Shown piece by piece: positions 3,973 to 19,073 of a DNA stretch of 37,746 nucleotides (within the stretch, counting starts at the first letter, position 1; every line of letters starts with the position of its first letter). Below the pieces are notes generated by a model, which saw only the letters and a list, made by a program, of their open reading frames with translations, ran no database searches and was not told the origin of the DNA. The stretch covers positions 1-37,746 of the forward strand of contig JAIOPG010000003.1 in NCBI GenBank assembly GCA_021414025.1. The letters are read 5' to 3'. This DNA comes from Planctomycetota bacterium. Lineage in GTDB: Bacteria > Planctomycetota > Phycisphaerae > Phycisphaerales > SM1A02. The position numbers and the translations under genes were made by a program.

Positions 3973-5583
3973 TCACCAGGGCTTCATCGCCTTGGCGAGA
4001 TGCTTGAACAGAAGCATGGCCCGCTGTCCGAAGGTGGGCGGCTTGAGTTTTTCACCCTGAATGCCGGAGGCGATCCGCCGGTCGTCGGAAATCTGGCGCA
4101 GTTCCTTGGCAAACTCCGGGCGCCGTTTCAGCACGGCGATCACGCTCTCCTTGGAGAACTGCAGCAAGGTGACGCCATTCTCCCCGGCGACCACATCGGC
4201 CGAGCGCGGCTGGTTGAGCAGCAGCGCCATCTCGCCGAACCAGTTTGGCGCCTCGATCTCGACCGGCTCCTTCCCTTTGGGCAGGACCCGCACCTTGCCG
4301 CGCATGACCATGTACATGTGGTCGCTCTGCTCACCGTAGCGCACCGCCAGCTCGCCCGGCTTCAATTCGATTTCCTGCGAATTGCGGGCCAGAACCCTGC
4401 GCTCCGAAGTGCTCATGTGCGCCTCGTCGAACAGCGGGCACCTGGCGATGATGCTTTCATTGTTCGAAATGTTCTCCTCGTTGACCGCCGCGATCTTGGC
4501 CTCCGCGTTCATGTCCACCATTCGGACCGCCCGGATCGGGAAGGGAATCTCGATGTTGCTTTCGTGCAGCGCGTACCAGACCTTGGTGAGGACGCCGTCC
4601 ACGGTCTCGTCCATGGTCCGGCGGTCGGCCACCCAGAACCGGAGCTCGTAGACAATCGCCGATTCGTGATACTGGTTCAGCAGCACCAGAGGAGCCGGAT
4701 TGGACAGGACGTCGACGTCGTGCTTGAGCACCTGGAGCATGACTTCCTTGGCAAGCATCGGCGGGGATGAGTACGAGATATTCACGTTGCGCCGCACCCG
4801 CAGCGCCCGCGTCGGATGGTCGAGGTTGAGGACCTCCTTCACCAGCAGCTCGCCGTTGGCGACAATCAGCATCTGGCCGTCGAGGGTGTGCACGCGCGTC
4901 GAGCGCAGGCTGGTGTCCCACACCACGCCTTCGAGTCCGCCCACGCCGATCTGCACCATGTCCCCCTTCTGGAAGACATTGTCCGCCTGCAGGTCGAAGC
5001 CGGAGAAGAGATTGGTGAGCGTGCGCTGCAGACCAAGGCCGACCACAAACACCAGCGCTCCACCAACGCCCAGCACCAGGGTCCGGATCGAGTACTGGCC
5101 GGCGAAATGAACCTGGTAGATGATCGCGATGCCAATGATTCCCAGGCCGAAGCGCATCGCCGCCTTCTGCAGCCGGATCAGGTCGCTGCCCAGCAGCGTG
5201 AAGCACAGGTTGCTCAGCACCACAAGCGCCAGGCTGACCGAGGCCAGCACCAGACCGAACTCCATGATCGTCCGAAGCAGCGGCACGACGAGGGTGGAAA
5301 GCTTCTCTGCGTCGTGGACGACGATTTCAAGCGGGTATTCCCAGCCAAACGCGATGCCCGCCCAGCCGAACACGGCGATCAGCAAACCGGCGCCGAGCCA
5401 CTTCGTGTCGCTCCGGCCCCGAAGGAAGAGCTTGACGCCAAGCACCGTGGCATAGATCGCCAGCGCCCAGATCAACAGGGACACGACCGGGTGAAGGTGC
5501 GGGATGGATTCCACCGCGGATTGGATCTCCTGGTCAGGCTGCACCCGCTCATTCTGACGCATTTTCAAAAACTTCGCCAGCAA
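3973..5583 (-). CDS. MscS-family mechanosensitive channel with C-terminal cyclic-nucleotide-binding domain
   Basis: A 536-residue inner-membrane protein. About four to five hydrophobic segments occupy residues 30-190; the last carries the Gly-rich pore-helix pattern GGALVFVVGLGLQRT continuing into LTNLFSGFDL. The MscS beta domain follows (NVFQKGDMVQIG, GVVWDTSLRSTRV) and then the alpha/beta domain to about 355. From about 375 a second module reads CPLFDEAH, LKPGELAVRYGEQSDHMYMV, and WFGEMALLLNQPRSADVVA, the phosphate-binding cassette of CNBD/Crp-like domains with its Gly-Glu and Arg. Known relatives include MscS-like cyclic-nucleotide-gated channels, which respond weakly or not at all to tension. 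Ligand gating here is inferred. The start may instead be the Met at residue 8. Confidence 0.9.
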   Translation of the reverse strand: MLAKFLKMRQNERVQPDQEIQSAVESIPHLHPVVSLLIWALAIYATVLGVKLFLRGRSDTKWLGAGLLIAVFGWAGIAFGWEYPLEIVVHDAEKLSTLVVPLLRTIMEFGLVLASVSLALVVLSNLCFTLLGSDLIRLQKAAMRFGLGIIGIAIIYQVHFAGQYSIRTLVLGVGGALVFVVGLGLQRTLTNLFSGFDLQADNVFQKGDMVQIGVGGLEGVVWDTSLRSTRVHTLDGQMLIVANGELLVKEVLNLDHPTRALRVRRNVNISYSSPPMLAKEVMLQVLKHDVDVLSNPAPLVLLNQYHESAIVYELRFWVADRRTMDETVDGVLTKVWYALHESNIEIPFPIRAVRMVDMNAEAKIAAVNEENISNNESIIARCPLFDEAHMSTSERRVLARNSQEIELKPGELAVRYGEQSDHMYMVMRGKVRVLPKGKEPVEIEAPNWFGEMALLLNQPRSADVVAGENGVTLLQFSKESVIAVLKRRPEFAKELRQISDDRRIASGIQGEKLKPPTFGQRAMLLFKHLAKAMKPW

Positions 5584-5646: not shown

Positions 5647-6180
5647 ATGCTGCGAACCCTCCTTCTGCCGATCCTCGTCTCCTGCGCCGCGGCCGGTTGC
5701 GCCGCCTCAACCCAGCCTTTCGCCGGCGCGCCGGCGTCGCGACTCACTCCTGCGCCGGCGGTCCAGCCCGACATCAACTCAAAGGTCGACAAGTGGCAGA
5801 CCGTGGTCTACGCCAACCGGCGCCCCTCGGCTGATGTGGTCTTCTACGGACTCGCCGACTGGCGCGATGCCATCACTTCCGCCAAGACCGCGGGCGCCAC
5901 GCAGACCAGCCTGATCTTTGTCTTCGACGGGCCGGCCCTGGTGGTGTCCCTCAACGACGCCGCCTTCAACCGCGTGATGGGCTCGAAGAACGGCAATCCT
6001 TGGAAGAGCCTGGTGACCGATTTGCAGAAGTCCGGCGCGCAGATCGAGGCGTGCGGCGGGCGCATGAAGGAGCTGGGCGTCGGCAACGCCGACCTGCTGC
6101 CGGGGGTGAAGGTCGACAACGACGGCTGGCTGCGCGTCATGGACCTGCAATCCAAGGGCTACGCCCTCTTTCAGACCTGA
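5647..6180 (+). CDS. DsrE-like lipoprotein
   Basis: A 177-residue protein. The N-terminus MLRTLLLPILVSCAAAGCAA has a hydrophobic core and an AAGC lipobox, so a lipid anchor in the envelope is likely. The mature part KWQTVVYANRRPSADVVFYG, LIFVFDGPALVVSL, GAQIEACGGRMKELGV and LRVMDLQSKGYA follows the pattern of DsrE/DsrF-like sulfur-relay folds, with one Cys (in EACGG) where family members carry a reactive one. An exported DsrE-like protein cannot work in the cytoplasmic Tus relay, so the role is unknown. The frame is open far upstream, opposite the MscS-like gene; ATG 5647 is chosen for the signal. It overlaps the convergent chemoreceptor by 10 bases. Confidence 0.7.
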   Translation: MLRTLLLPILVSCAAAGCAASTQPFAGAPASRLTPAPAVQPDINSKVDKWQTVVYANRRPSADVVFYGLADWRDAITSAKTAGATQTSLIFVFDGPALVVSLNDAAFNRVMGSKNGNPWKSLVTDLQKSGAQIEACGGRMKELGVGNADLLPGVKVDNDGWLRVMDLQSKGYALFQT

Positions 6181-8261
6181 TTTTTGCGGGCCTGGTCGGC
6201 GAGCTTGAAGATCGCCACCGCTTCGCGCAGCACGCTGATCGAGAGAATCAGCGACTGTGCGGCCTCGGAGAATTCCTTGGTCGCGTCGCGGGCCCGGCTG
6301 GCGTTCTGCGAAAGTCCATCCATGCTTTGGCGGATCTGCTCGGCCCCCTGCACCTGGCTCTGCATGCCCGTGGTCACCTCACCGAACTGACCGCCGATCT
6401 CACCCACTCCCTGGATGACGCCGGCGAGCCGCTGGCCGATCGAGCTCACCTGTCCCACGCCGCGGCGCACCTGATCGGCGAAGCGGTCCATTTCCATCAC
6501 GCCGCCCGAAACCGCGGTCTGCATCTGCTCGACGGTGCGCTCGATGTCCAGCGTCGCCGAGGCGGTCTGGTCGGCGAGGCGGCGGATCTCGCGTGCCACC
6601 ACCAGGAATCCCTTGCCGCTTTCACCGGCCTTCTCCGCCTCGATCGCCGCGTTCACTGAGAGCAGGTTGGTCTGGTCGGCGACCTTGGTGATCGCGACCA
6701 CGATGGCGTTGATGTTGCTGGCCTTGTCGTTGATCGCGGCCAGTCGGCCGGAGATTTCACCGGTGGCCTTGGCCAGCGCGTCCATGGTCACGCCCATCGA
6801 CTTGAGATCGGTCCGGCCTTCGTTGGCCAGGCGCGACGACTCCTTGGCGCTGGCGGAGACCCCCTCCATGGTGCGGAAGAGCTCGGCGCCGGTGGTGGAA
6901 ATCTGGCGGATCGCCGCCGCAATCTCGCTGGAACTGGCGCCGAAGGACTGGGCCACCTCGTCCTGCTGGTGGCTGGCGGCGGTCATCTGGTTGGCGGTGC
7001 CGGTGATGGCGATGGTCGCCTCGCGCACCTTGCCCACCAGGCCGGCCAGACGCTGTCCCATCTCGTCCATGGTCTGCAGGAGTTTTCCCGACTCGTCGAG
7101 ATTGGAGGGATCCGCGAAGCTGCGGCTCAAATCGCCCTGGGCCACGATCGAGGCGGCTTGCACGCCCTTTCGAATCCTGCCCGCCAGCCGCATGGCCAGA
7201 CGCACCAACAGAATGGTGACCAACACGATGGAGGCCACGGCGATGGAGCCGCTCACCATGGCGAAATTGAAAATTCTGCCCTGAATCTCTCCAGCGGGAA
7301 TCTCCACCAGGACCGTCCAGCCACCGGTCGGGATTTTTGCCGTCGCAAAAACAGTCTGGGACTTCGCGATGGGATCCTCCAGCCAGGCCGTGGCCGAGTC
7401 ACTCCCTTTCAGCAACGGCGCCAGCACGGGTCCCCAAGGGGTTGACGCGACTTCCTGGGTCTTCAGTTGCGACAAATCCGCGATCGCGCGTCCCTGGCCA
7501 TCCAGCGGTGCGACCGCCGCGATGAATTTCCCGCCTGCCGAAACCATGAAGATGTTGTTTCCCGTGCGCGTGGCCAGGGTTTGCAGGTAGCTTTCAATCT
7601 GGATCAGCGAGCGGTCCACCCCCGCATTCCCCGCAAATTTCCCGTCGATGACAATGGGAACCGTGCACTCGGTCATCATGACGCCTTCGTAGGTGTAGGG
7701 CTCCGTGATCGTGGGCGCGCGGCTCTTGTGGTCCCGCCAATTGCGCAGCGGTCCCTGATTCCACATGTTCTCGAATTCATTGAGGGACTTCAGCGAAATT
7801 TTGCCGCCCTGCTGGAGGTCGCGGTACCAGTAGGGAATGAAGCGGCCCTTGGGATCCAATGCGGCGGAGGGCAATTCAATGTTCGCTCGCACGGCACCCG
7901 CGTAGGAGGCGTCCTTGCCATCGGCGTTGGGTTCGTAACAGAACCAGCAGCCGTTGACCCGTGAGGAATTCTCCATGACTTGGCGGGCAAATTCCAGGCT
8001 CTCCTCACGTTTCCCGAACAATCCGCGTTCCGCGGCGCTGGCCATGGTCTGAGCGGTCATCACGGTCGCCTGGTTTCGCGACTCATAATTCGCGGCAATC
8101 ATTTCCGCATCGACCAGCGCCTCCTCCTCGCTCAGCTGTCCCAGCAGCGTCTCAAGGCGGCTGCGATTGATGACCACCACCGCCAGAGAGATGAGCAGGA
8201 AGGGCAGCACACCGTACAAAATGAATTGTCCGAGCAGGCTGTGCCGGAACCGAATCTTCAT
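6171..8261 (-). CDS. methyl-accepting chemotaxis protein, WspA-like signalling domain with a large periplasmic Cache sensor
   Basis: A 696-residue inner-membrane receptor: TM1 at about residues 10-28, a roughly 300-residue periplasmic part with Cache-like features (FIPYWYRDL, ITEPYTYEGVMMTECTVPI, GNAGVDRSLIQIESYLQTL), TM2 near 333-358, then HAMP and a long coiled-coil signalling domain. The hairpin tip reads VADQTNLLSVNAAIEAEKAG and EIRRLADQTASATLDIE; together with GVMEMDRFADQVRRGVGQV this resembles WspA, the surface-sensing receptor that drives diguanylate cyclase WspR in pseudomonads. No CheA, CheW, CheR or GGDEF gene is in the window. The Cache part suggests small-molecule sensing. Start ATG 8261 fits the basic residues before TM1. 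Confidence 0.92.
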   Translation of the reverse strand: MKIRFRHSLLGQFILYGVLPFLLISLAVVVINRSRLETLLGQLSEEEALVDAEMIAANYESRNQATVMTAQTMASAAERGLFGKREESLEFARQVMENSSRVNGCWFCYEPNADGKDASYAGAVRANIELPSAALDPKGRFIPYWYRDLQQGGKISLKSLNEFENMWNQGPLRNWRDHKSRAPTITEPYTYEGVMMTECTVPIVIDGKFAGNAGVDRSLIQIESYLQTLATRTGNNIFMVSAGGKFIAAVAPLDGQGRAIADLSQLKTQEVASTPWGPVLAPLLKGSDSATAWLEDPIAKSQTVFATAKIPTGGWTVLVEIPAGEIQGRIFNFAMVSGSIAVASIVLVTILLVRLAMRLAGRIRKGVQAASIVAQGDLSRSFADPSNLDESGKLLQTMDEMGQRLAGLVGKVREATIAITGTANQMTAASHQQDEVAQSFGASSSEIAAAIRQISTTGAELFRTMEGVSASAKESSRLANEGRTDLKSMGVTMDALAKATGEISGRLAAINDKASNINAIVVAITKVADQTNLLSVNAAIEAEKAGESGKGFLVVAREIRRLADQTASATLDIERTVEQMQTAVSGGVMEMDRFADQVRRGVGQVSSIGQRLAGVIQGVGEIGGQFGEVTTGMQSQVQGAEQIRQSMDGLSQNASRARDATKEFSEAAQSLILSISVLREAVAIFKLADQARKNQV

Positions 8262-8379: not shown

Positions 8380-10692
8380 CTAGGCGACTTCCCGCTTGGC
8401 CGGATCGGTGCGCTGGGACATTTCCTTCAGCTCGATGCGAAGCTGCGAGGCCCGCTGCCGGGCCTCCTGCTCGCGCTTGCGCGCCGTCTCGACGCGCTCG
8501 GTCAGCTCCTGGTCCAGCTCCAGCTGGCGGCGCAGCGCGACGGTCTCCTGGTCGGCCAGCATCTGGTGCTCGGCCTGCACCAATTGGCGCTGCTGCTGGA
8601 TCTGCTTGGCGGCGCTCTGCGCCTCGGCGAGGGACTTGCCCAGCTTGTCGATGGTCTGCGTCACCGAGGCGCCTTCGCGGACGGCCTGCTCCTCCAGCGC
8701 CATGGCCTCGAACTCCAGCTTCAAGGTCTTCTCCGCGGCGTCGACCGCCTGGCGCAGGCGCTCGCACGCCTCGCTGCGTTCGCGCAGCCGCTTCGCCTGC
8801 TCCTGTGCCATGGCCCGGCGGCGGTCCAGGTCGCGCTCCACCCGCTCCACTTCCTGCTCAAGGCGCGCGGCCTCGGCTTCGGCCAGTTCCGACTCCGCGA
8901 TCAGCGCGTCCACGCGGGCCTGGGCCTCGGCGGCCTGCCGCTGCTTCTCCTGGCTCAGGGCGCCGGCCTCGCGCGCCTGCGCGAAGGCGGCCTCGGCCTG
9001 GGCGTCCGCCTCGCGAATGGCCTCGATTTCCTTGAAGAGTCGGCCGTTGGCGGCCTCCACCGCGTCGCGCTCGCGTCGGGCGCGGCGCTCCGCCTCGATG
9101 GCGGCGGTCCGCTCCCGGTCCGCCGAGGCGCGGGCCTCCATCTCGGCCGTCCGATCCTTCTCGAGCATGGAGATCGCCTGCGACAATTCTCCGCGGGCGA
9201 CTCCGGCTTCGTCCCCCGCCGCCTTGGCGGTGGCCAGCAGCTCGTCGGCGCGGCGCATCGCCTCCACCGCCAGCTCCCGTTGTTTTTCCACGTTCTCAAC
9301 CAGCTCGCGCTCGCGCGCGGTTGCCGCGTCCGCCCGCGCCGAGGCCTGCTCGGCCGCGACGCGCTCGATGTCCGCGCGGCGCAAAGCCTCCTCTGCGATG
9401 GCCCGCTGCTCGCCGGCCCTTCGCTGCGCGGCATCCGCCGCCTTTCGCTCCTCGTCGGCGCGCTGACGCGCCTCCTCCACGGTGGCCCGCTCGCGCTCGA
9501 CGCGGTCGAGCATGGTCTGCACCATCGCCCGCTCCTTCAAGGCCTGCTCGGTCGCCACGCGCACCGCCTCCTCGAGCCGCGCCGCGCGGCTCTCCGATTC
9601 CCGTGCTGCTTGCTGGGCTCGCTCGGCGCGCTGCTGCGCCTCAAGCACGGATGCTCGGGTCGCCTCGGCGCGCTCATGCGCCTCCTGAGCCAGCCGCTGG
9701 TCGCGCTTCCAGCGCTCCTCGGCTTCCTGGGCCGCGGCGCGGTCGCTTTCGGCGGCCACCCTGATCTGGTCCGCGTGCGCCTTCGAGGCCGCCGCCGCTT
9801 GGCGGAACTCCTCGGCCTCCTGGGTCAGCCGCTGCGCCTCCTGCGCCGCCTTCTCGGCGGCGCCCTGCAACTGGCCCGCGTTTCCGCGGGATTGGACCGC
9901 CTGGCCGCGGGCCTGGTCCGCCGCGGTTCGCGCCGCGGTGGCCTGCTGATGGATCTTCTCGGCCTGGTCGATGCGCTCCTCGATCTCCGCGAGCGTCTTC
10001 TGGGAGCCCTGCCGGTCCTCCTCGGCCATCTGGATTTCCTTCTGCAGATGCGCGATCGAGACGGAGTGGGTCTCCTTCATCGACTCGAGCCGGCTCGCCC
10101 GCGCGGCCAGGGTGGCTTCCTGCTGCGCGAGCTGCTCGGCCAGCTTGCGCTCATGCTCCAGCCTTGCCTCCGCCTCGGCGCGGGCTTGCGCCTCGAGCCG
10201 CTGACGCTCCAGTTCCTGCCGCCGCGACAATTCCGCCGCCTCCTGCAGAGCCCGGTCGACGCGGATCTTCTCGCGCTGGCGGCGCGTCCGGGCGAGCTGG
10301 TCGCGCCACAAGCAGAGTTCGTTCTTGAAGGCCAGGATCTTGGCGTCGCTCTCGCCGCGCGACTTCATCGAGTCCAGGCGGAGCTGCAGCAGGCGGTCAA
10401 ACGCGGCGTCATGGACGTCGCGCCAGCTCCGGCGGTAGAGGTCGAGCTCGATCGCGCTGGTGTCGAAGCGCTTGGCCAGAAGCTGCAGCGCGCCGGCGGC
10501 GTCATTCTGAAAGCGCCGCAGAATGTCCATCAGATCGGAGGGCACATCGGTCGAAAGGCGCAGCCGGCCGACGAGCTCGCCGACCTCCAGCACCACCGCG
10601 TGCTCCGCGTCGCTCAGCGCGCGACCGCCGCACATGCGCTTGGACTCCCAGGCGTCGAGATAGCCGTCCAGATTTTTGCTCGTGTTTGCCAT
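8380..10692 (-). CDS. long coiled-coil protein
   Basis: A 770-residue protein without signal peptide or membrane segment. Residues 1 to about 150 look like a folded helical domain (LDGYLDAWESKRM, DVPSDLMDILRRFQNDA). From there to the end the sequence is nearly unbroken Ala/Glu/Arg/Gln heptads such as AERAQQAARESESRAARLEE, predicted to form a very long coiled coil, ending TDPAKREVA. The frame continues upstream to 10740; ATG 10692 (MANTSKNLDG) is preferred. It is last in the minus-strand run with the LpoB-like cluster, 129 bases after the lpoB-like stop, so it may share the transcript. A cytoplasmic scaffold or filament is plausible, but no function can be assigned. Low-complexity composition makes the opposite strand artificially open. 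Confidence 0.8.
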   Translation of the reverse strand: MANTSKNLDGYLDAWESKRMCGGRALSDAEHAVVLEVGELVGRLRLSTDVPSDLMDILRRFQNDAAGALQLLAKRFDTSAIELDLYRRSWRDVHDAAFDRLLQLRLDSMKSRGESDAKILAFKNELCLWRDQLARTRRQREKIRVDRALQEAAELSRRQELERQRLEAQARAEAEARLEHERKLAEQLAQQEATLAARASRLESMKETHSVSIAHLQKEIQMAEEDRQGSQKTLAEIEERIDQAEKIHQQATAARTAADQARGQAVQSRGNAGQLQGAAEKAAQEAQRLTQEAEEFRQAAAASKAHADQIRVAAESDRAAAQEAEERWKRDQRLAQEAHERAEATRASVLEAQQRAERAQQAARESESRAARLEEAVRVATEQALKERAMVQTMLDRVERERATVEEARQRADEERKAADAAQRRAGEQRAIAEEALRRADIERVAAEQASARADAATARERELVENVEKQRELAVEAMRRADELLATAKAAGDEAGVARGELSQAISMLEKDRTAEMEARASADRERTAAIEAERRARRERDAVEAANGRLFKEIEAIREADAQAEAAFAQAREAGALSQEKQRQAAEAQARVDALIAESELAEAEAARLEQEVERVERDLDRRRAMAQEQAKRLRERSEACERLRQAVDAAEKTLKLEFEAMALEEQAVREGASVTQTIDKLGKSLAEAQSAAKQIQQQRQLVQAEHQMLADQETVALRRQLELDQELTERVETARKREQEARQRASQLRIELKEMSQRTDPAKREVA

Positions 10693-10821
10693 GGGAGATC
10701 CAATCAACAATCGACGCGGCGAAGGCGCCGCATGAACCATTTTCGGCCGGATTGTCGATTTGCCTGCAAAAGTCCGGGAACGATCTCCGTCCTCCGTCCC
10801 TGGCCCCGAGCGAATCTCCGC

Positions 10822-11436
10822 TCAGAAGCCGATCGCGTTCCTCTGCCCCTGCTTGGTGACCGTCTCCTCGCCCTCCCAGACCGCAAGGCCGCTGTTGGTG
10901 TCGGTCAGGCTCATCTGGAAAATGAAGGAGGTCTGCTTGGTGTTTCCTTCGGCCACGCTGTTCTCAAGGATTTTCGCGGTCAGCGTGTAGTCGGTCAGCC
11001 GCGGCATCTCGTTGCTCTTGCCGCTCTGAAACTCGCGCATGTCCTTGGTGCCCTTGGCCATCGGGTCCTCGGGCTTGCCGTTGAGGCCCTCGGTGGTGCT
11101 CACCTGCACCTTGCCGGTCTGCAGCAGGGCGATGCGAATCTTCTTGATCAGCTCGTCGGTGTCGAACTGGTCGGAGGTGTCGTTGGTGATCCGGCTGATG
11201 CCCAGGATCGAAGGCTGATGAGCCGACTTCGCGAAGATTCCCGACTCGCTCATGCTCTGCACCAGCTTGTCGGCCGCAAGGTTGAAGTCCTGGATGTCCA
11301 CCTTGTTGGTCGAAGTGATCACCTCATTGCCCCGCGAGTCGATGCGCCGCGCCGGCGTGCAGGCCGACAGCACGGTCAGGGTCGCGAGCGAGGCCAGGAG
11401 AGAGGCGCGGGACATGGTGTTCAGGGAGGTGTGCAT
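10822..11436 (-). CDS. lpoB: LpoB-like lipoprotein, possible penicillin-binding-protein activator
   Basis: A 204-residue lipoprotein. The N-terminus is hydrophobic with lipobox TVLSAC. The rest follows LpoB/YcfM: DLNAAD-like start of the domain (FNLAADKLVQSM), PSILGISRITNDTSDQFDTD, LIKKIRIALLQTGKVQV, DYTLTAKILENSV, and the closing TNSGLAVWEGEETVTKQG. In E. coli, LpoB reaches from the outer membrane through the wall and stimulates PBP1B. An AAGGA lies about 11 bases before ATG 11436; ATG 11415 would also give a good signal peptide. It is 25 bases downstream of the YcfL-like gene, the same neighbour and order as ycfL-ycfM in E. coli. Whether it activates a PBP in this organism is inference. Confidence 0.85.
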   Translation of the reverse strand: MHTSLNTMSRASLLASLATLTVLSACTPARRIDSRGNEVITSTNKVDIQDFNLAADKLVQSMSESGIFAKSAHQPSILGISRITNDTSDQFDTDELIKKIRIALLQTGKVQVSTTEGLNGKPEDPMAKGTKDMREFQSGKSNEMPRLTDYTLTAKILENSVAEGNTKQTSFIFQMSLTDTNSGLAVWEGEETVTKQGQRNAIGF

Positions 11437-11461
11437 CGAAGGAATCCTTGGGTGGGCGGGC

Positions 11462-11881
11462 TCACTGGGTGAGCGGAAGATTGGTGTCGAGCAGTTGCAG
11501 CTGCCACTGGGTCGAGGTCGGCGTCGGGCCGATGCTGCGGATCGTGATGGTCTCCTGCGGCATGATCCGCTGGGTCTGCCAGGCCTGGGCGGCGCCGGTG
11601 ATGCGCATGCCGTTGGCGTCGAACCAGAGGAATCGGTAGGAGAAGCTCTGCGGATTCAACTGGTTGCTGAAGACCGCCACCTGCACGCGCTTCTGATCGC
11701 CGTTGACCACGTCCTCGCGCACGTCGGTGACATTGGCCTTGTAGTTGAGCCATCCGTTGGTCACGACCTGCTGGAATCCCTTGGTGCCCGGGCCGCCGCC
11801 CGAATCCGGCGTCATCGTGTTCATCGTGTTGCACGCGGCGAGCGCGAGGACAAGGGCGACGCTTTGGATCAGTCGAGGCAT
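11462..11881 (-). CDS. YcfL-like (DUF1425) lipoprotein
   Basis: A 139-residue protein with signal peptide and lipobox LALAAC, hence probably lipid-anchored. The family pattern is visible in VQVAVFSNQLNPQSFSYRFLWFDANGMRI (hydrophobic-Trp-Phe-Asp-x-x-Gly) and in the terminal IMPQETITIRSIGPTPTSTQ. ATG 11881 has an AAGGAGA ribosome binding site at 11891-11897, nine bases upstream, which decides the start over the in-frame codon at 11905. It lies between the COG3014-type gene (31 bases) and the lpoB-like gene (25 bases). The function of YcfL is not established; linkage to lpoB in distant phyla suggests a shared envelope role. Confidence 0.82.
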   Translation of the reverse strand: MPRLIQSVALVLALAACNTMNTMTPDSGGGPGTKGFQQVVTNGWLNYKANVTDVREDVVNGDQKRVQVAVFSNQLNPQSFSYRFLWFDANGMRITGAAQAWQTQRIMPQETITIRSIGPTPTSTQWQLQLLDTNLPLTQ

Positions 11882-11912
11882 GGCAGCAGTTCTCCTTGAA
11901 GGCAAGAATAGT

Positions 11913-13367
11913 TCATCCCGGGTTTGGAATTGGAAAGACCAGCACCGCGGGCTGCGTTCCCGCCGCCACGCTGCGCACGCGGATGACCGTTGCCGGGCCC
12001 GCCGGAATCGCGATGGGGCCGATCGCGCGGCCGTCGGAGAGGGTCAGCGAGATCGCGCCAGACTCGGGCCGGTCCACCCGGGCCCACAGCACCCGCTTGG
12101 GCAGGGTCAGCCAGCAGCGCAGATCCGCGGAATTGAGGGCGGCCTGGTAGATGGCGCCGGAGATCGCCCCCCAATCCCCCAGGCTCTGCTGCAACCCGTA
12201 GGTCGCCGCCGCCTTGCTGGCGCTGGAGACCAGGGTGGCGATGATGATCCCCGGCAGGCGCTGATTGAAATCCTGCGCGACGACGGCGTCCATGTCCGTG
12301 AGCAGCGCCGATCCGGCCGTGGCGCCGGCGCCCTCCACCGTGAAAAAAGTCACCGAGGGCTCATCGTGGAACTCAAGCAGCGGAAAGGCGGCGCCGACGT
12401 AGGGCACCTCCTGGATAAAGAGCGGAATGTCGATGCGCAGTTCCTTGAGCGACGGGCCGCGGCCCGCCTCGACGAAGATGAAGATGCTCTGCGTCGGAGT
12501 CTTCCCCTCCGCCGCCTCCCCGGCCAGGGCGACATCGCGCAGCGCGACCTCGCTCGTCGGCGGCGGCAGCATCTCGGCGACGCGCTTGAAGGCGACCCGC
12601 GCCTGCTCGAAGCTTCCGGTGGCGAAGCGGTTCACGCCGCGCAGGTAGGTGGCGTAGGGAATCTCGTAGTTCGAGTAGCCGCGCATCTCGCGGATGGTTC
12701 CGTAGTAGAAGTTCATCTGGGCCTGGAAGCCGGAGTCCTGGAGGGTTTTCTCCGCGTCGTATCCATTTTTCCGGCCCGCCTCCTCGAAGGCCTTCGTCTC
12801 GCTGTCGATGCGCGACTGATGCCGGGCCACAAAATCCTCCTGCCACTTCTGTGCCCGGCGCAACTCCACCTGCGCCTTGTCCGACCGACCCAGCGCGTAG
12901 TAATTGAGCGCTTGGTAGGTGTTGAGCATGATCCGGTCCACGCCGGTACCCCGGTAGGTTCGGATGGTTTGATTGGTCAGCGCGGCGGCGACCTCCTCAG
13001 TGACCTTGGCCTCTGGTTCCTCGTCCAGGTAGGGCGAGACCTCGTTCCACACCGATTGAAAAGTCGCCAGGCTCTGCGAGTACTGCCCCGCGTCCTGCTG
13101 GATGGCTCCGCCCTCCAGGTTGTAGATGACCCCGTTGATCGGCGCGTCGGACGTGCCGTCGCCATTGGAGTCCTGCAGGGAGTATTCATTGAGCAGCGGC
13201 GCAATCTCGTTGGCGGCCTCGGAAAATTGTCCCTGATCAAACAACTGCATCGTCGGCCGCATCTTGGCGTCGTAGCCGCAACCTGCGGCCAGCATGACAA
13301 GCATGGACACGCCGCCAGCGCGGAGGGCTGTTTGCAGCGAGCCGGAATCGCGATCAGGAAGCGACAT
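11913..13367 (-). CDS. COG3014-type lipoprotein
   Basis: A 484-residue exported protein. MLVMLAAGCGYD provides a lipobox (LAAGC), so it is probably a lipoprotein. The N-terminal half is helical and TPR-like, counting repeated segments such as MQLFDQGQFSEAANEIAPLL, NTYQALNYYALGRSDKAQVE and FYYGTIREMRGYSNYEIPYA. The C-terminal half holds strands, including SIFIFVEAGRGPSLKE, FPLLEFHDEPS and MDAVVAQDFNQRLPGIII. This layout matches the uncharacterised COG3014 family, which, as I recall, is found next to LpoB and YcfL homologues in marine gammaproteobacteria. The insert SNGDGTSDAP at about 60-70 is EF-hand-like and unusual. ATG 13367 is chosen; in-frame ATG 13418 would overlap the upstream gene. 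Confidence 0.78.
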   Translation of the reverse strand: MSLPDRDSGSLQTALRAGGVSMLVMLAAGCGYDAKMRPTMQLFDQGQFSEAANEIAPLLNEYSLQDSNGDGTSDAPINGVIYNLEGGAIQQDAGQYSQSLATFQSVWNEVSPYLDEEPEAKVTEEVAAALTNQTIRTYRGTGVDRIMLNTYQALNYYALGRSDKAQVELRRAQKWQEDFVARHQSRIDSETKAFEEAGRKNGYDAEKTLQDSGFQAQMNFYYGTIREMRGYSNYEIPYATYLRGVNRFATGSFEQARVAFKRVAEMLPPPTSEVALRDVALAGEAAEGKTPTQSIFIFVEAGRGPSLKELRIDIPLFIQEVPYVGAAFPLLEFHDEPSVTFFTVEGAGATAGSALLTDMDAVVAQDFNQRLPGIIIATLVSSASKAAATYGLQQSLGDWGAISGAIYQAALNSADLRCWLTLPKRVLWARVDRPESGAISLTLSDGRAIGPIAIPAGPATVIRVRSVAAGTQPAVLVFPIPNPG

Positions 13368-13398
13368 GGCTCGTCGGGACTTTTGGGGCGGCCGGCGC

Positions 13399-15654
13399 CT
13401 AGGGAATGATCTGTCCACCGTAGATGCCGGGATAGATCGTCACGGGGGCCTGCGTGGTGTTCACCTTGTAGTCCACCGAGAACTTCGAGTTGCGCAGATA
13501 TTCCGCGAAGGCCTTCATCTGCTCCACCTGGGCGTCGGTCAGCTGCTGCTTTTCCTTCGTGTTCTGCAGGAACGCGGTGTTGGCCAGCCAGCGCTCATAG
13601 CCGGGCTCGTCCAGTTGCATCGGGACGACCAGCTCGGTGGTCCCGCCCGCGCGAATGTTGATCGTCTTCTCCCAGGTCTTGAACCCCGCGCGACTCACCG
13701 CGACCTTGTGCAGCCCGGAGTTCGCGGGCAATGCCGCGAGATTCGGCGTCGGCACGGAGCCGACCACCACGCCATCGATCTCGACGACCGCGGAGAGCTG
13801 TGATGGCTGGACATGCATCGAGTTGCCAGTGAATTCGAAGCGGCCGGCGTCGTTTTTCACGAGCTCGGGCACGGTGAGATCCTGCATGGTGCAGGTGACC
13901 GACAATCCGCCGGTGGCACTCTCGCTCGGAGCGCCCACCTGGTTCTGTCCGCACTTGGCCAGCAGCTGCCGGCACATGCCCGCCGAGACTTGCTTGAAGA
14001 GCGGCCCGGTGAGCGTGAGCTGCGTGTTGAGATTGGGCGTGTTGCGGTAGGTCTCCTCGCCGGCGGCCTCGCCGGAGACGAACATCCTGCCGGTCGCCGC
14101 GTCGAGAATCTTGTAGGTCGCGGTGAGCGTGTAGGTCACGTTCTCCGTCTTGACGCCGAGGCGCTCGTCCTGGAAGTTCTTGACGTTGTTGTCCAGCGAG
14201 GTCAGCGATCCGATCAGCACGTACTGGCAGCCCAGGTTGCCCGCCAACGCCGTGGCCGAGGATTGATCCGAGAGCAGCTTGTCCAGGTCCTCGTAGCGCT
14301 CCGCGCCGCCCTTGAGCACCTCGATCACGTCGCGCGCGGTCTTGGCCTCGCCGGTGGGCGTGCCCTGGGTTCCCTGGTTGGGTCCCGTCGCCGCCAGCTT
14401 GGAGAGGCTGTTGATGACGTCCTCGCGCGAAATGATCCGGAAGCAGGCGCCCTCGAGACGCGCCACCATCAAGTCCTCGAGAATGGAGACCTTGTCGACG
14501 GCGATGTCCTTGCAGCGGTTCGTGATGAAGATCGCGGCGGTGTATGGCGTGGCCGCTGGAGCCGAAGCTCCCCCACTCTGCAGCGTCGGCGTCGCGGCGC
14601 CAGGGGACATGGTCGGCGTCGGAGCGGCCGGGACCATTGAGCCCGCGGCGCGTGATTCACTTTTCATCGACGCACCGCCCGGCGCATTGGCCGGACACGC
14701 CGTCTGGTTGGAGAGCCGGGCCACGCAACCGACGTCGATTCCCAGATCGGATCCGCACACGGTTCCCTTGGAAAACTTCGACTGGACCTCGGTGATGCGG
14801 ATCCATCCGATGCTGACCTCCTCGCGGCCGAGCACTTCGCGCGTGTCGGGATCGACGAGCTCCTTGCCCTGGGCCGAGACCTGCCAGATCTGATCGGCCT
14901 TCACTCCCGTGCCATCGCCGCGGTTGATGGTGGCGACGCCGTCGGTCAGGGCGAGAATCTTCGCCGGAAAAAGCACGTCCATCATGCGGTTGGCGATCTT
15001 TGAGGACATCATGGCGGCCAGATCCACGATGGCCTGCTCGGTCAGGCTCGCGCCCTTCTCGCTGGTGAGGTACTCCGGGTTGCGGACAAAATCGGAGTTG
15101 TCGATGCGAAGGCTGGCGGATTCAAGCAGCTTCCCTGTGTTCGATTCATACATCTTGGCGACGCACATCAGGCTCACGATGCGCTTGGTCGCCTTCTTGC
15201 CGATGCCCTCGAACTCCGCGGTCTGGACATTGTCCTGGAAGTCGGTGATTGAGGCGACCACCATGTAGCGGGCGCCCGCGAGCTTGCCCGCCTTCGCCAC
15301 GTTCGGGTCGCCGGCGTCGGCGTTTCCACTGGCGCCCAGGTCCTGCTCCTTGATCAGATCGCCCAGGTCGCTCCGCGCCACCACGTCAAACTTGCGAGTC
15401 TCCTGGAAGGCCGGGACCAGCTGCGCGTCGAGCGCCTCGGTCACGCGCCCCAGCTCGTTGATCTGCCCGCGATCGGTCAGCGTGCGCGTGGTTGCCGCCG
15501 TGACTTTCACGGCGCCGACCGCCAGGGAAAGCTTCCCGCCCGCCGGCGTTGCGGATTCCGCGGGAACCTGCGCCCGGGCCGCCGCGCCACAGAGCAAAAC
15601 GCAGGAAAAAACCAGCTTGAAGAACGCGGAACCCGCGGCGCGTGAATTGATCAT
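13399..15654 (-). CDS. secreted protein with two CsgG-like domains and a PEGA domain
   Basis: A 751-residue exported protein. A signal peptide (about 1-28) ends ARAQ. Domain 1 (about 40-235) is CsgG-like: VTEALDAQLVPAFQETRKFD, VARSDLGDLIKEQ, AGARYMVVASITDFQDN. It is followed by a small beta domain resembling the FlgT C-terminus (about 235-300: RGDGTGVKADQIWQVS, GWIRITEV). After a Pro/Ala/Thr linker (320-370) comes a second CsgG-like unit (370-570: MVARLEGACFRIISREDVIN, LGCQYVLIGSLTSLDNN). A PEGA-like domain follows at about 620-685 (VVEIDGVVVGSVPTPNLAAL, HKVAVSRAGFKTWEKTI). GAAAR is not a lipobox, so it is probably soluble or assembled in the envelope. GAAAGGG lies about 10 bases before ATG 15654. 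It is first in the cluster and ends 31 bases before the COG3014-type start. Confidence 0.85.
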   Translation of the reverse strand: MINSRAAGSAFFKLVFSCVLLCGAAARAQVPAESATPAGGKLSLAVGAVKVTAATTRTLTDRGQINELGRVTEALDAQLVPAFQETRKFDVVARSDLGDLIKEQDLGASGNADAGDPNVAKAGKLAGARYMVVASITDFQDNVQTAEFEGIGKKATKRIVSLMCVAKMYESNTGKLLESASLRIDNSDFVRNPEYLTSEKGASLTEQAIVDLAAMMSSKIANRMMDVLFPAKILALTDGVATINRGDGTGVKADQIWQVSAQGKELVDPDTREVLGREEVSIGWIRITEVQSKFSKGTVCGSDLGIDVGCVARLSNQTACPANAPGGASMKSESRAAGSMVPAAPTPTMSPGAATPTLQSGGASAPAATPYTAAIFITNRCKDIAVDKVSILEDLMVARLEGACFRIISREDVINSLSKLAATGPNQGTQGTPTGEAKTARDVIEVLKGGAERYEDLDKLLSDQSSATALAGNLGCQYVLIGSLTSLDNNVKNFQDERLGVKTENVTYTLTATYKILDAATGRMFVSGEAAGEETYRNTPNLNTQLTLTGPLFKQVSAGMCRQLLAKCGQNQVGAPSESATGGLSVTCTMQDLTVPELVKNDAGRFEFTGNSMHVQPSQLSAVVEIDGVVVGSVPTPNLAALPANSGLHKVAVSRAGFKTWEKTINIRAGGTTELVVPMQLDEPGYERWLANTAFLQNTKEKQQLTDAQVEQMKAFAEYLRNSKFSVDYKVNTTQAPVTIYPGIYGGQIIP

Positions 15655-15836: not shown

Positions 15837-17999
15837 ATGCGCCATACCCGAAATCATGCCGCCGCCTGTCTTGTGTTTTTCCCGGCGTGGATTTCGTCTT
15901 TTGCACTCGCCGGCGGCGGCGAATCGTTCGGCGACATTCCAATGATCTGGTCCGATGTTGCGGTGGGAGCCATGTCCGGCGCGCAGCACGGCATGCCGCA
16001 GGAGGAGCGCCTCGCCTGGTATTCGCTCGTGCAAGCGCCCGAGGCCTCGTGGCTCCGCCTGGAATTCGGCGAAGGCTCGACCCTGGCCCGGGCGATGAGC
16101 GGCGCCCAGACCGACAGCTACATCCGCATCACCAGCCTGCTCGACGGCGCGGAGCAGATCCTCACCGCCGAAAGCCTTGAGCAGTGGCACAACACCAGCG
16201 CCTACTTCAACGGCGACGCCGTCATTGTCGAGTTGATCACGGGCAAGGGCGACGCCCTGAGCCAGATTTCCATCGCCACCGCGCAGGTGGGCGAGGAACC
16301 CGTCGTCATCATGAAATCGCAGTGCGGCGGCGTCGACGACCGGATCGCCTCGACCGATCCCCGCGTCTGCCGGATCACCTCGGTGGGCTGCACGGGCTGG
16401 ATGATCAACGACGCGAACCACATGTTCCTCTCGGCAGGCCACTGCCCCGCCGATCCCGGATTCTCCGTGGCGCAGTTTCATGTTCCGCTTTCGCTGGGCA
16501 ACGGCTCGGTCGTGAATCCGCCGCCGGAGGACCAGTACGCCATTGACGCGTCGAGCATCCAGTACGCCAACGGCGGCATCGGCAACGACTGGTGTTACTT
16601 CGGTGTGTTTCCGAATTCGAACACCGGTCTGACCCCCTTTCAAAAGCAGCAGGCCTCCTTCATCTGCGCGGCCCCGCCCCCCGTCGCCGACGTCACGCTG
16701 CGCATCACGGGCTTCGGCCTCGACATCGGCAACGCGAGTCAGACCAACCAGACCAGCACCGGCCCCTTCACCAACAACCCCGGCACGACGCTGCAGTACG
16801 CGGTCGACACGATGGGCGGCAACTCCGGATCGCCGGTGATCGTCGAGGGCCAGGGCGTGGCGATCGGCATCCACACGCACGCGGGGTGCTCCTTCGGCGG
16901 CGGCGCCAACAACGGCACCAGCTACAGCCGCGCCGGACTGCAGGCCGCGCTCGCCAGCCCGAAGGGCGTGTGCAAGGCGATGGGCTTCGACTTTCCCAAT
17001 GGCCTCCCCGTGAATCTGAACAGCGCCGGCGGCGAGGAGATCCTGGTGACCTTCACCTCGCCCTCGGGAGCCTCAGCGCCGGCAGCCCCCAAGATGATGT
17101 GGAAGTACGAGGGCGACGCGGCTTCCTCGACGATCAACGGCGTCCTGGTCTCGGGCACCACCTACAGTTTCACCACCCCCGGCTTCAACTGCGGCTCGCG
17201 CGTTCTCTACGGCTTCTCGGCGCGGATGGGCGCGTCCGGCGGCATGGGCACCTGGCCCGCGGCGATGCCGCAGCAGTGGCTCTCCGCGGACACCTCCTCC
17301 ATCAATCTGGTCATGTGGGCGGACAATTTTGAGTCCAACCTCTCCTGGACGGCTGACGCGTCGGGCGCCACCTCCGGTCTCTGGACTCGCGCCGCCCCCA
17401 ACGGCGGCGGATTCCACGGCGATCCGCTGATCGACGCGGATGGCAGCGGCGAGTGCTTCGTCACTGGCAACATCGAGGGCAACAGCGTGGCGGATGGCAG
17501 CGTGACCCTGACCAGCCCGGCGCTGGACGCCTCCACGGCGCTCAACGCCCATCTGAGCTACTCCTTCTGGTTCGACAACACCACCGGCGCGAATCCGAAC
17601 CAGGGCTCCATGGTGATCGAGATCTCCGAGGATGATGGCCAGAACTGGGCCAATGTCGAGACGGTCTCGCCCGCGGACACCGGCGTGGGATGGGTGCACC
17701 GCCTGCTCCATGTCAGCGACTTCGTCAATCCCTCATCCACGCTGCGACTCCGCTTCACGGCGACCAACACCGATCCCGACTGCGTTGTGGAAGCCGGCGT
17801 CGACGGCGTGCGTCTGCTCGCCGAGGGCGGCCTGGGATGGTGCGGCTTGCAGGGCGATTTCAACAATGATGGCGTGGTGGACTCCGGCGACCTCGGCATT
17901 CTTCTCCTGCAATACGAGATCGGCGGCCTGACCGACCTGGACGGCGACGGCACCACGGATTCCGCCGACGTCGGCCTGCTGCTGCTGATGTTCTCCTGA
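15837..17999 (+). CDS. secreted trypsin-like serine protease with C-terminal dockerin-like repeats
   Basis: A 720-residue exported enzyme. A signal peptide ends around FALAGG. The chymotrypsin-fold triad can be read as His202 in LSAGHC, Asp251 in GNDWCYFGV and Ser330 in GGNSGSPVI, with Cys pairs nearby that suggest disulfides. Residues about 395-660 hold beta-rich modules, including a region after WADNFESNLSWTADASG that resembles MAM/jelly-roll-like accessory domains. The last 50 residues contain two EF-hand-type repeats, GDFNNDGVVDSGDLG and LDGDGTTDSADVG, the dockerin-like ending frequent in planctomycete secretomes. Start ATG 15837 has AAAGG seven bases upstream. Substrates are unknown. It is divergent from the LpoB-like cluster; NagZ follows 42 bases later in the same direction. 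Confidence 0.9.
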   Translation: MRHTRNHAAACLVFFPAWISSFALAGGGESFGDIPMIWSDVAVGAMSGAQHGMPQEERLAWYSLVQAPEASWLRLEFGEGSTLARAMSGAQTDSYIRITSLLDGAEQILTAESLEQWHNTSAYFNGDAVIVELITGKGDALSQISIATAQVGEEPVVIMKSQCGGVDDRIASTDPRVCRITSVGCTGWMINDANHMFLSAGHCPADPGFSVAQFHVPLSLGNGSVVNPPPEDQYAIDASSIQYANGGIGNDWCYFGVFPNSNTGLTPFQKQQASFICAAPPPVADVTLRITGFGLDIGNASQTNQTSTGPFTNNPGTTLQYAVDTMGGNSGSPVIVEGQGVAIGIHTHAGCSFGGGANNGTSYSRAGLQAALASPKGVCKAMGFDFPNGLPVNLNSAGGEEILVTFTSPSGASAPAAPKMMWKYEGDAASSTINGVLVSGTTYSFTTPGFNCGSRVLYGFSARMGASGGMGTWPAAMPQQWLSADTSSINLVMWADNFESNLSWTADASGATSGLWTRAAPNGGGFHGDPLIDADGSGECFVTGNIEGNSVADGSVTLTSPALDASTALNAHLSYSFWFDNTTGANPNQGSMVIEISEDDGQNWANVETVSPADTGVGWVHRLLHVSDFVNPSSTLRLRFTATNTDPDCVVEAGVDGVRLLAEGGLGWCGLQGDFNNDGVVDSGDLGILLLQYEIGGLTDLDGDGTTDSADVGLLLLMFS

Positions 18000-18041
18000 T
18001 CCCTGCGCCACCGCGTGAGGCGCATCAACTACGATTCGTCG

Positions 18042-19073
18042 ATGCATGACGCGCCGCGGCATTCGACCCCTCTCGCCTCCGCCAGCGCCCTGGTGTGCAT
18101 CGGCATCGCGGGCACGTCGTTGCGGCCGGAGGAGGCCGCTCTGCTGGCCGGCGGCGTCCGAAGCGTGGTGCTCTTCACCCGCAACTACAGCGACGCGGCG
18201 CAACTCGCCCATCTGTGCATGACGATCCGCGAGGCGGCGGGTCGAAGCGTTCTGATCTGCGTCGACCAGGAAGGTGGCCGCGTACAGCGCTTCCGCGGCG
18301 CGCCATTTCCCGACCAGGCCGAGGCGCGGGCGCTGGGCGCGCTCGGGGCCGAGGCGGTGGCGCTGGCAAGCGCGGACACCGCGACGGCGCTTCGGACCTG
18401 CGGCATCAACATGAACCTGGCGCCTGTGCTCGATGTCGACAGCAATCCGAACAATCCCGTGATCGGCAACCGCTCCTTCGGCCGCGATCCCGCCATCGTG
18501 GCGGAGCTCGGCGCCGCCTGCGTCAGGGCGATGCAGCGCTGCGGCGTGGCCGCGTGCGGCAAGCATTTTCCGGGCCACGGCGACACCGATGTGGACAGCC
18601 ACCTGGCCCTGCCGAGCCTGGCGCACGCGCTACCGCGCCTGGAGCAGCTCGAGCTGGTTCCCTTTCGCGCCGCCATCGCGGCAAAGGTCGCCGCGATCAT
18701 GACGGCGCACGTCGTCCTCGAGGCGATCGATCCCGGCGTGCCCGCGACGCTCAGCGCCACGGTGATCGAGGGGATGCTGCGCAAGACTTTGGGCTATGAC
18801 GGCTTGATTTTGACGGACGACTTCGACATGAAGGCCATCGCCGACCGCTTCGAGAGCGGCGCGGCGGCGGTGCGCTCCATCGAGGCGGGCTGCGATCTGG
18901 TGCTGGCGTGCCGTGACATCGCCACACAGCGCCGCGTCATCGAGGCGCTGAGCGACGCGATCGCCGATGGCCGATTGCCGAAGGAGCGTGTCGCGCGGTC
19001 CCACCGGCGCCTGGAGCAGGTGCTGGGTGCCTACCCCTCGCTCGCTCCCGACGCCGCGGCACGAACCGCCTGA
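18042..19073 (+). CDS. nagZ: beta-N-acetylhexosaminidase, NagZ-like (GH3)
   Basis: A 343-residue GH3 glycosidase expected to remove GlcNAc from GlcNAc-anhydroMurNAc muropeptides during wall recycling. Visible motifs are CVDQEGGRVQRF near residue 73, NMNLAPVLDVDSNPNNPVIG near 123, KHFPGHGDTDVDSH (174-187) with the Asp185-x-His187 acid/base dyad, and LTDDFDMKAI with nucleophile Asp259. No signal peptide is evident, consistent with cytoplasmic NagZ. ATG 18042 (MHDAPRH) is preferred over GTG 18015. The gene may be co-transcribed with the protease upstream. It converges with the aguB-aguA-thrE operon; a small hairpin with arms 19088-19093 and 19104-19109 lies between them without a T-run. Confidence 0.92.
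   Translation: MHDAPRHSTPLASASALVCIGIAGTSLRPEEAALLAGGVRSVVLFTRNYSDAAQLAHLCMTIREAAGRSVLICVDQEGGRVQRFRGAPFPDQAEARALGALGAEAVALASADTATALRTCGINMNLAPVLDVDSNPNNPVIGNRSFGRDPAIVAELGAACVRAMQRCGVAACGKHFPGHGDTDVDSHLALPSLAHALPRLEQLELVPFRAAIAAKVAAIMTAHVVLEAIDPGVPATLSATVIEGMLRKTLGYDGLILTDDFDMKAIADRFESGAAAVRSIEAGCDLVLACRDIATQRRVIEALSDAIADGRLPKERVARSHRRLEQVLGAYPSLAPDAAARTA

Follow-up and report, generated by a model that had tools for sequence, protein, structure and literature searches.

This locus raises the question of what a gene of the LpoB family does in a bacterium in whose genome no class A penicillin-binding protein (PBP) could be detected. In Escherichia coli LpoB activates PBP1B; the gene considered here lies in 37,746 nucleotides from a planctomycete of the class Phycisphaerae (assembly GCA_021414025.1, contig JAIOPG010000003.1), and this whole stretch is called the window in the following. 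A first interpretation made from the letters alone (the sequence-only reading) had described a five-gene envelope cluster around LpoB. The five open reading frames (ORFs), named A to E here, are indeed found on the minus strand at the positions listed below and A to D held up as a unit, but E did not, and the cluster is therefore made up of the four genes A–D (15654-10822, minus strand) and not of five. These genes are one conserved, widespread and little-studied predicted lipoprotein operon, and judged by its sequence D resembles an operon-linked homologue only distantly related to the PBP1B activator of E. coli.

13399-15654, minus strand: gene A, exported protein with a tandem CsgG/TolB-N fold and a PEGA domain, FlgT-like
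11913-13367, minus strand: gene B, tetratricopeptide repeat (TPR) lipoprotein, presumably of COG3014 type, lipobox LAAGC
11462-11881, minus strand: gene C, YcfL/DUF1425 lipoprotein (PF07233)
10822-11436, minus strand: gene D, operon-linked LpoB-family lipoprotein with a 23-residue linker (assigned from PF13036, TIGR02722, the linker and trees)
8380-10740, minus strand: ORF E, coiled-coil protein found in the genus only, judged to lie outside the operon
6171-8261, minus strand: methyl-accepting chemotaxis receptor, beside E in the sister genome too, outside the operon

With ATG starts at 13367, 11881 and 11436 the gaps are 31 bases between A and B, 31 between B and C and 25 between C and D, in agreement with the spacing of 25-31 bases that had been given for the first four genes. 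Four exported products, three of them with lipoboxes, had also been expected; reading by eye we find the lipoboxes LAAGC, LAAC and LSAC in B, C and D, and in A a signal peptide and no lipobox. A scan for promoters and terminators was uninformative, since it gave three terminator-like sites (6.4 in shuffled sequences) and one promoter-like site on the other strand (0.6 in shuffled sequences). ORF E starts at least 81 bases downstream of D, and Pfam yielded nothing credible for it. When 61 genomes of the order were searched with its N-terminal 171 residues, counted from the second ATG, two gave matches, namely its own and one of the same genus. In the sister genome A-B-C-D are contiguous and E is found some 3.5 kb past D, where the chemotaxis receptor gene follows it directly, just as it does in the window. 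Because of the restriction to the genus and this distance we do not count E in the operon, and the proposed expansion of the module by a coiled coil was dropped.

The linkage of the remaining genes reaches far beyond the window. We used a sample of 120 genomes of the class, in which G000 is the window's own genome, and counted matches to the LpoB model PF13036 at E 0.001. Such a match is present in 64 genomes (59 over the cut-off) and the family of B in 54; both occur together in 48, LpoB only in 16, B only in 6 and neither in 50. The B family is thus found in 48/64 LpoB-positive and in 6/56 LpoB-negative genomes (Fisher test 4e-13, uncorrected for kinship), and in 45 of the 48 genomes with both the two genes lie on one contig at most 3 kb apart, those of G041, G047 and G095 being on different contigs. 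Twenty LpoB loci from the 63 other positive genomes, ten from the same order and ten more, were read more widely, and hidden Markov models (HMMs) of the four families found B in 19, C in 16, D in 20 and A in 7 of them.

For named genomes we took the loci of the best 80 of 127 confirmed B-family relatives, all of which have B by construction because they were retrieved through this gene. By title they belong to Planctomycetes, Lentisphaerae, Verrucomicrobia, Desulfobacteria and other deltaproteobacteria, Campylobacterota, Gamma- and Betaproteobacteria and Chlorobi. D is present in 71 of these loci, C in 65 and an A-family match in 43, and wherever B, C and D are all found (59 loci) they stand in the order B-C-D on one strand. 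Iterated HMMs seeded with the window proteins place B, C and D in families common to loci of other phyla. The survey bears out the sequence-only reading where it saw an old conserved module of YcfL, LpoB-family and COG3014-type parts, and the order YcfL-LpoB could be confirmed on the E. coli locus; the novelty of a CsgG-type partner in this lineage is not supported, given the 43 loci with an A-family match. Of 101 sequences searched (the 80 named loci, the 20 class loci and the window), 16 encode a DUF6844 protein at a place between D and the A-family gene, among them L095, L113 and L117, and two of three such proteins typed with Pfam carry a GYF_2 domain. The same HMM finds none in the window, and a literature search on DUF6844 returned nothing. 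In six Phycisphaerae loci (L037-L040, L049, L050) two LpoB-family genes surround the COG3014-type gene.

The label COG3014 for B is a presumed one; a literature search under this name returned nothing. Pfam gives only weak, sub-threshold TPR models for B, and a profile search against solved sequences found nothing better than E 0.028. The predicted structure (pLDDT, a per-residue confidence measure, 87.8; pTM, its whole-chain counterpart, 0.88) consists of a TPR domain followed by a beta/helical C-terminal region, and the structures that it matches are TPR proteins of a generic kind. LpoP (6w5q) turns up as a neighbour of the TPR domain (Z 14.1, root-mean-square deviation 2.2, 106 aligned residues) but ties with designed and unrelated TPR proteins, and we build nothing on it. 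The C-terminal helices of B were considered as membrane-spanning and this was given up, the best 19-residue hydropathy being 0.5-1.6 in 24 sequences including that of the window. Gene C, whose lipobox was read by eye, matches PF07233 (DUF1425, YcfL) at 2.5e-17 with 63 bits against a cut-off of 28.3, and the profile of its family matches the solved structures 3o0l (1.4e-13) and 4gio (4e-12), the latter being that of Cj0090. YcfL of E. coli belongs to the same Pfam family, and the C-family HMM picks the ORF at the ycfL place of E. coli (2.6e-12). There ycfL adjoins lpoB as well, but no B-family match lies within the 20 kb examined.

Is D then an LpoB? It matches PF13036 at 3e-24 (86 bits, curated cut-off 22.3) but reaches only 92.7 bits with the NCBIfam equivalog TIGR02722, whose cut-off is 110.55. 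The membership of D in the LpoB family, which the sequence-only reading had named as a check on its proposal, thus holds for the Pfam family and fails for the NCBIfam equivalog. With the latter model E. coli LpoB scores 218 bits; seven of eight operon-linked relatives score 131-167 and pass, and L031, of the same family, scores 84.7. By these scores two kinds of gene go under the name LpoB. They occur side by side in the genomes of Pragia, Limnobaculum, Budvicia and Oceanimonas, as an lpoB linked to hinT and nagZ and a separate COG3014-linked copy. The former stands, as in E. coli, in the setting hinT-lpoB-(thiK)-nagZ, and no B-family match was found in the hinT-linked loci L174-L177 or in the E. 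coli locus. In Pragia PF13036 scores the operon-linked copy above the hinT/nagZ-linked one (144.6 and 86.8 bits) and therefore does not separate the two kinds. Both copies also pass the TIGR02722 cut-off (160.6 and 119.2 bits), so that annotation likely gives them one name.

Several features set D apart from the E. coli kind. With twelve operon-linked copies it shares 25-45% identity, with five of the E. coli type 16-19% (14-20% on the alignment used for the linkers). Between its anchor cysteine and the first helix D has 23 residues with 1 proline, and the linker of the other LpoB-family proteins of these loci has a median of 23 and a range of 12-29 residues, counted in 80 of 97 rows, the script having recognised no lipobox in the 17 rows dropped. 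The five E. coli-type copies have linkers of 38-58 residues with 16-20 prolines; for E. coli LpoB the account in PMC9593243 describes a 54-residue unstructured N-terminus that gives it the reach to PBP1B. PMC6220978, consulted for the residues by which LpoB makes contact, yielded none for this protein. A profile of D matches the solved LpoB structures weakly (2mii 0.012, 4q6z 0.042), and LpoB is not among the matches of a single-sequence search with D. In a large tree the window D falls inside an 80-row set of operon-linked copies (split 96/89), and in a smaller tree of 33 chosen rows, which leaves out 15 of 18 class rows discussed further below together with many others, it stands with the operon-linked copies (split 98/97). 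D thus shares with E. coli LpoB (lpoB, b1105) the PF13036 family, the lipobox and the YcfL neighbour, but differs from it by an identity of 19%, a shorter linker, a score below the NCBIfam cut-off, other neighbours and a genome in which no UB2H-bearing PBP is detected. We would rather regard the E. coli-type LpoB, which has a long proline-rich linker and a UB2H partner, as a derived cousin tuned to PBP1B. A Sulfurimonas genome (L178) has in addition another LpoB-family gene, divergent and situated away from the operon, beside which no neighbours of E. coli lpoB were found.

The search for a class A PBP that D could activate gave a negative answer. The class A PBP model PF00912 has no match in G000, which is 97.48% complete and was searched twice, the same search finding matches in 10 of 14 control genomes, and none in a genome of the same genus. 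It matches in 7 of the 120 class genomes, in 3/64 LpoB-positive and 4/56 LpoB-negative ones, and is thus not associated with LpoB (p 0.70). The single UB2H match of G000 is the UvrB-interaction part of Mfd, and a UB2H-bearing PBP was therefore rejected for this genome. UB2H matches occur in 49 of the 120 class genomes, 25 over the cut-off and many in ORFs of about 1100 residues; with one genome examined, many of them are probably Mfd too. That bacteria of the Planctomycetes-Verrucomicrobia-Chlamydiae (PVC) group can lack class A PBPs has been described before (PMC8406291), and Typas 2010 placed LpoB and UB2H only in enterobacteria (PMC3060616). Thirteen named genomes that have B and D were compared: each of the 8 gammaproteobacteria among them shows a UB2H match in an ORF of 774-824 residues, and the 5 others show none. 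PF00912 is present in all 13, including the Phycisphaerales genome G132, so that class A PBPs are lacking in G000 and in the greater part of the class sample, but some hosts of the operon do have them. As a side observation, the UvrB-interaction domain of Mfd is recognised by the UB2H model of Pfam (one genome examined; L065, 1779-5000), and counts of UB2H made without a length or domain filter may therefore overstate the number of PBP1B-like proteins.

One could still argue that D is a genuine LpoB orthologue which activates a PBP whose partner domain is too divergent to be seen. The PF13036 match far above the cut-off, the seven of eight operon-linked relatives that pass the NCBIfam cut-off and an approximately unbiased (AU) test, which did not reject (p 0.22) that D and the five E. 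coli-type LpoBs form one clade, speak for this. The low TIGR02722 score and short linker of D, the four gammaproteobacteria with both kinds, the missing PF00912 and the identity of the one UB2H match in G000, together with the rarity of PF00912 in the class, speak against it, and we consider this explanation highly improbable. Direct activation of a class A PBP in G000 is unlikely, and the idea of a conserved PBP-activator module in the window is not supported by the analysis. Since D is a distant cousin and no such synthase was detected in G000, the function of LpoB cannot simply be transferred to D.

Other wall synthases are present. G000 has two SEDS and two transpeptidase matches, and the chief rival explanation is that D, B and C act from the outer membrane as regulators of the wall synthesis carried out by SEDS proteins and class B PBPs, in a lineage that lost its class A partner or never had one. 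Published relatives bear on this point. HP0018 of Helicobacter pylori is a TPR lipoprotein homologous to Cj0089; according to the report in PMC11394524 its deletion leads to hypervesiculation and less helical cells, the protein co-immunoprecipitated the wall enzymes MltD and AmiA, and its authors suggest a wall-remodelling role via HP1457 as an LpoB homologue. The co-immunoprecipitation would fit an action on the wall, but the candidates it names are hydrolases. Moreover, among the matches listed, those of G000 that score best for SEDS and PBP are not on the contig of the window but on C4 and C6, and SEDS genes are found in 118 of the 120 class genomes, as against 64 with LpoB and 54 with B; the operon can therefore be at most an optional SEDS regulator. 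We regard such a regulation as unlikely.

The relatives in Campylobacter jejuni (cj0089-cj0090-cj0091) and H. pylori (HP0018/HP1457) likewise are described as a lipoprotein operon with TPR lipoproteins and LpoB homologues (PMC3100323, PMC11394524), and the window differs from them by the additional tandem CsgG/PEGA protein A. B, C and D of the window have the same-strand order and the short gaps of 31 and 25 bases of the Cj0089-Cj0091-type operon. In the Campylobacteraceae loci L125 and L140 B, C and D follow each other in the same order, and L138 shows B and C up to the end of the contig. From the gene order in these relatives and the published descriptions, rather than from a direct comparison of sequences, the C. 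jejuni operon appears to be the same unit as that of the window. Cj0091 was found mainly in the outer-membrane fraction (PMC3100323).

Gene A matches the CsgG model of Pfam (PF03783) at 1e-17 with 64.6 bits over a cut-off of 20.8, and PEGA at 3e-6. FlgT_M matches at 5e-6 at the position of the second repeat, with 27.3 bits below its cut-off of 31.2, and up to E 1 FlgT_N and FlgT_C have no Pfam match in A. The predicted structure, of low to middling confidence (pLDDT 62.9), shows two CsgG/TolB-N-like domains, in line with the double CsgG-like/PEGA protein that had been proposed. Foldseek finds FlgT as the best match of this model (3w1e, E 1.5e-14), with TM-scores of just 0.16/0.31 for the multi-domain chain, followed by CsgG (4uv2, 1e-7); the FlgT matches include the LPHT-ring entry 8z5n. 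A shares the fold of Vibrio FlgT and E. coli CsgG and the Pfam model of the latter, but in contrast to both it contains this domain twice, carries PEGA in addition and adjoins a COG3014-type gene, YcfL and an LpoB-like gene. The tandem, PEGA-bearing build is the only feature of A that looks unusual; the A-family HMM is driven by the CsgG-like fold.

These matches bring up two further explanations. The operon might build a ring- or scaffold-like structure at the outer membrane or an accessory linked to the flagellum, in the manner of FlgO, FlgP and FlgT in Vibrio. The FlgT match with its LPHT-ring entry would agree with this, as would a Sulfurimonas locus (L113) with an LPP20-family gene upstream of the operon (over the Pfam cut-off) and another downstream (under it). 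However, the operon also occurs in Chlorobium, a non-motile genus, and the model of A is of limited confidence with low TM-scores; a ring or flagellar function is rather improbable in our opinion. Secondly, A could be a CsgG-like secretion pore and D an adhesin, the operon thus serving export or surface display. A matches CsgG but lacks a lipobox, and Chlorobium and the environmental Phycisphaerae which harbour the operon are free-living. A cj0091 mutant of C. jejuni adheres less, in accordance with a display function, but the same report does not place Cj0091 firmly on the cell surface (PMC3100323). We judge this explanation to be very unlikely.

The best explanation overall, to which we give about an even chance, is that A–D encode a complex of outer membrane and periplasm for the integrity of the envelope, which works without class A PBPs. 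We infer that the TPR scaffold B, C and D would be held at the outer membrane by lipid anchors, as their lipoboxes suggest, D offering an LpoB/TolB-N-type domain on a short tether. Together with the FlgT/CsgG-like periplasmic protein A they may assemble into a complex at the periplasmic side of the outer membrane, which would tie this membrane to the wall, keep both in register during growth and limit blebbing. If the complex touches wall synthesis in this organism, pairs of SEDS proteins and class B PBPs would be the only polymerases detected on which it could act. Part of the evidence for the envelope function is the hypervesiculation seen on deletion of HP0018 and the recovery of Cj0091 mainly in the outer-membrane fraction.

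A number of results weigh against this proposal. Gene A varies between lineages, being found in 7 of the 20 class loci (9 with a broader model), and C was not found in 15 of the 80 COG3014 loci. Nine of the 80 loci are without D; seven of them end at most 0.8 kb from B, but L093 and L126 have room for D and yet lack it. In C. jejuni Cj0089 was assigned to the inner membrane, at odds with a complex that resides wholly at the outer membrane, and the cj0091 mutant, besides its lower adherence, shows less early colonisation of chickens with normal growth and motility (PMC3100323). The cj0089 mutant is described there as showing no significant change. Amidase_3 has no match in G000 and in five more of ten genomes tested, all of which have B and D; with this AmiA is weakened as a general partner of the operon, and Amidase_3 was rejected in this role. 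The trees are also less clear than their split values suggest. Besides the clade with E. coli-type LpoBs that the AU test left standing, a long branch separates the two kinds, and the 80-row set of the window in the large tree does not include 18 class rows from COG3014-type loci or the second Sulfurimonas copy, many of these outside rows being on long branches.

More tentatively, and with a rather low probability of being right as a whole, the operon may be an ancient module for control between outer membrane and wall that predates class A PBPs and does not need them. In Phycisphaerae and other hosts without these enzymes it would act on SEDS/class B PBP synthesis or on the link of outer membrane and wall, and E. 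coli LpoB would be a late offshoot which gained the long linker and the UB2H partner, with YcfL as a relic neighbour. On this view E. coli LpoB would stem from the operon. Whatever its origin, the annotation models label as LpoB a second, far wider family, including members in genomes in which either UB2H or a class A PBP is not detected. Separating the two kinds changes what can be inferred from the name and gives a testable story for the origin of the outer-membrane PBP activator. It also draws attention to a little-studied envelope operon common to Planctomycetes, Proteobacteria, Campylobacterota, Chlorobi, Lentisphaerae and Verrucomicrobia.

Some neighbouring genes may be mentioned. On the opposite strand, about 2.4 kb from the operon, a glycoside hydrolase family 3 (GH3) protein at 18015-19070 (plus strand) is homologous to E. 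coli NagZ (4.9e-44). The nagZ gene of E. coli lies close to lpoB, but the 18 kb loci L031 and L032 have nothing that matches NagZ, and because of this the nagZ homologue near the window operon is probably there by chance. Between it and the operon, at 15837-17999 (plus strand), lies a gene for a protein with a trypsin-like domain whose C-terminal end reads by eye as a dockerin-type repeat pair. At 3973-5583 (minus strand) the window encodes an MscS-type channel with a cyclic-nucleotide-binding domain at its C-terminus.

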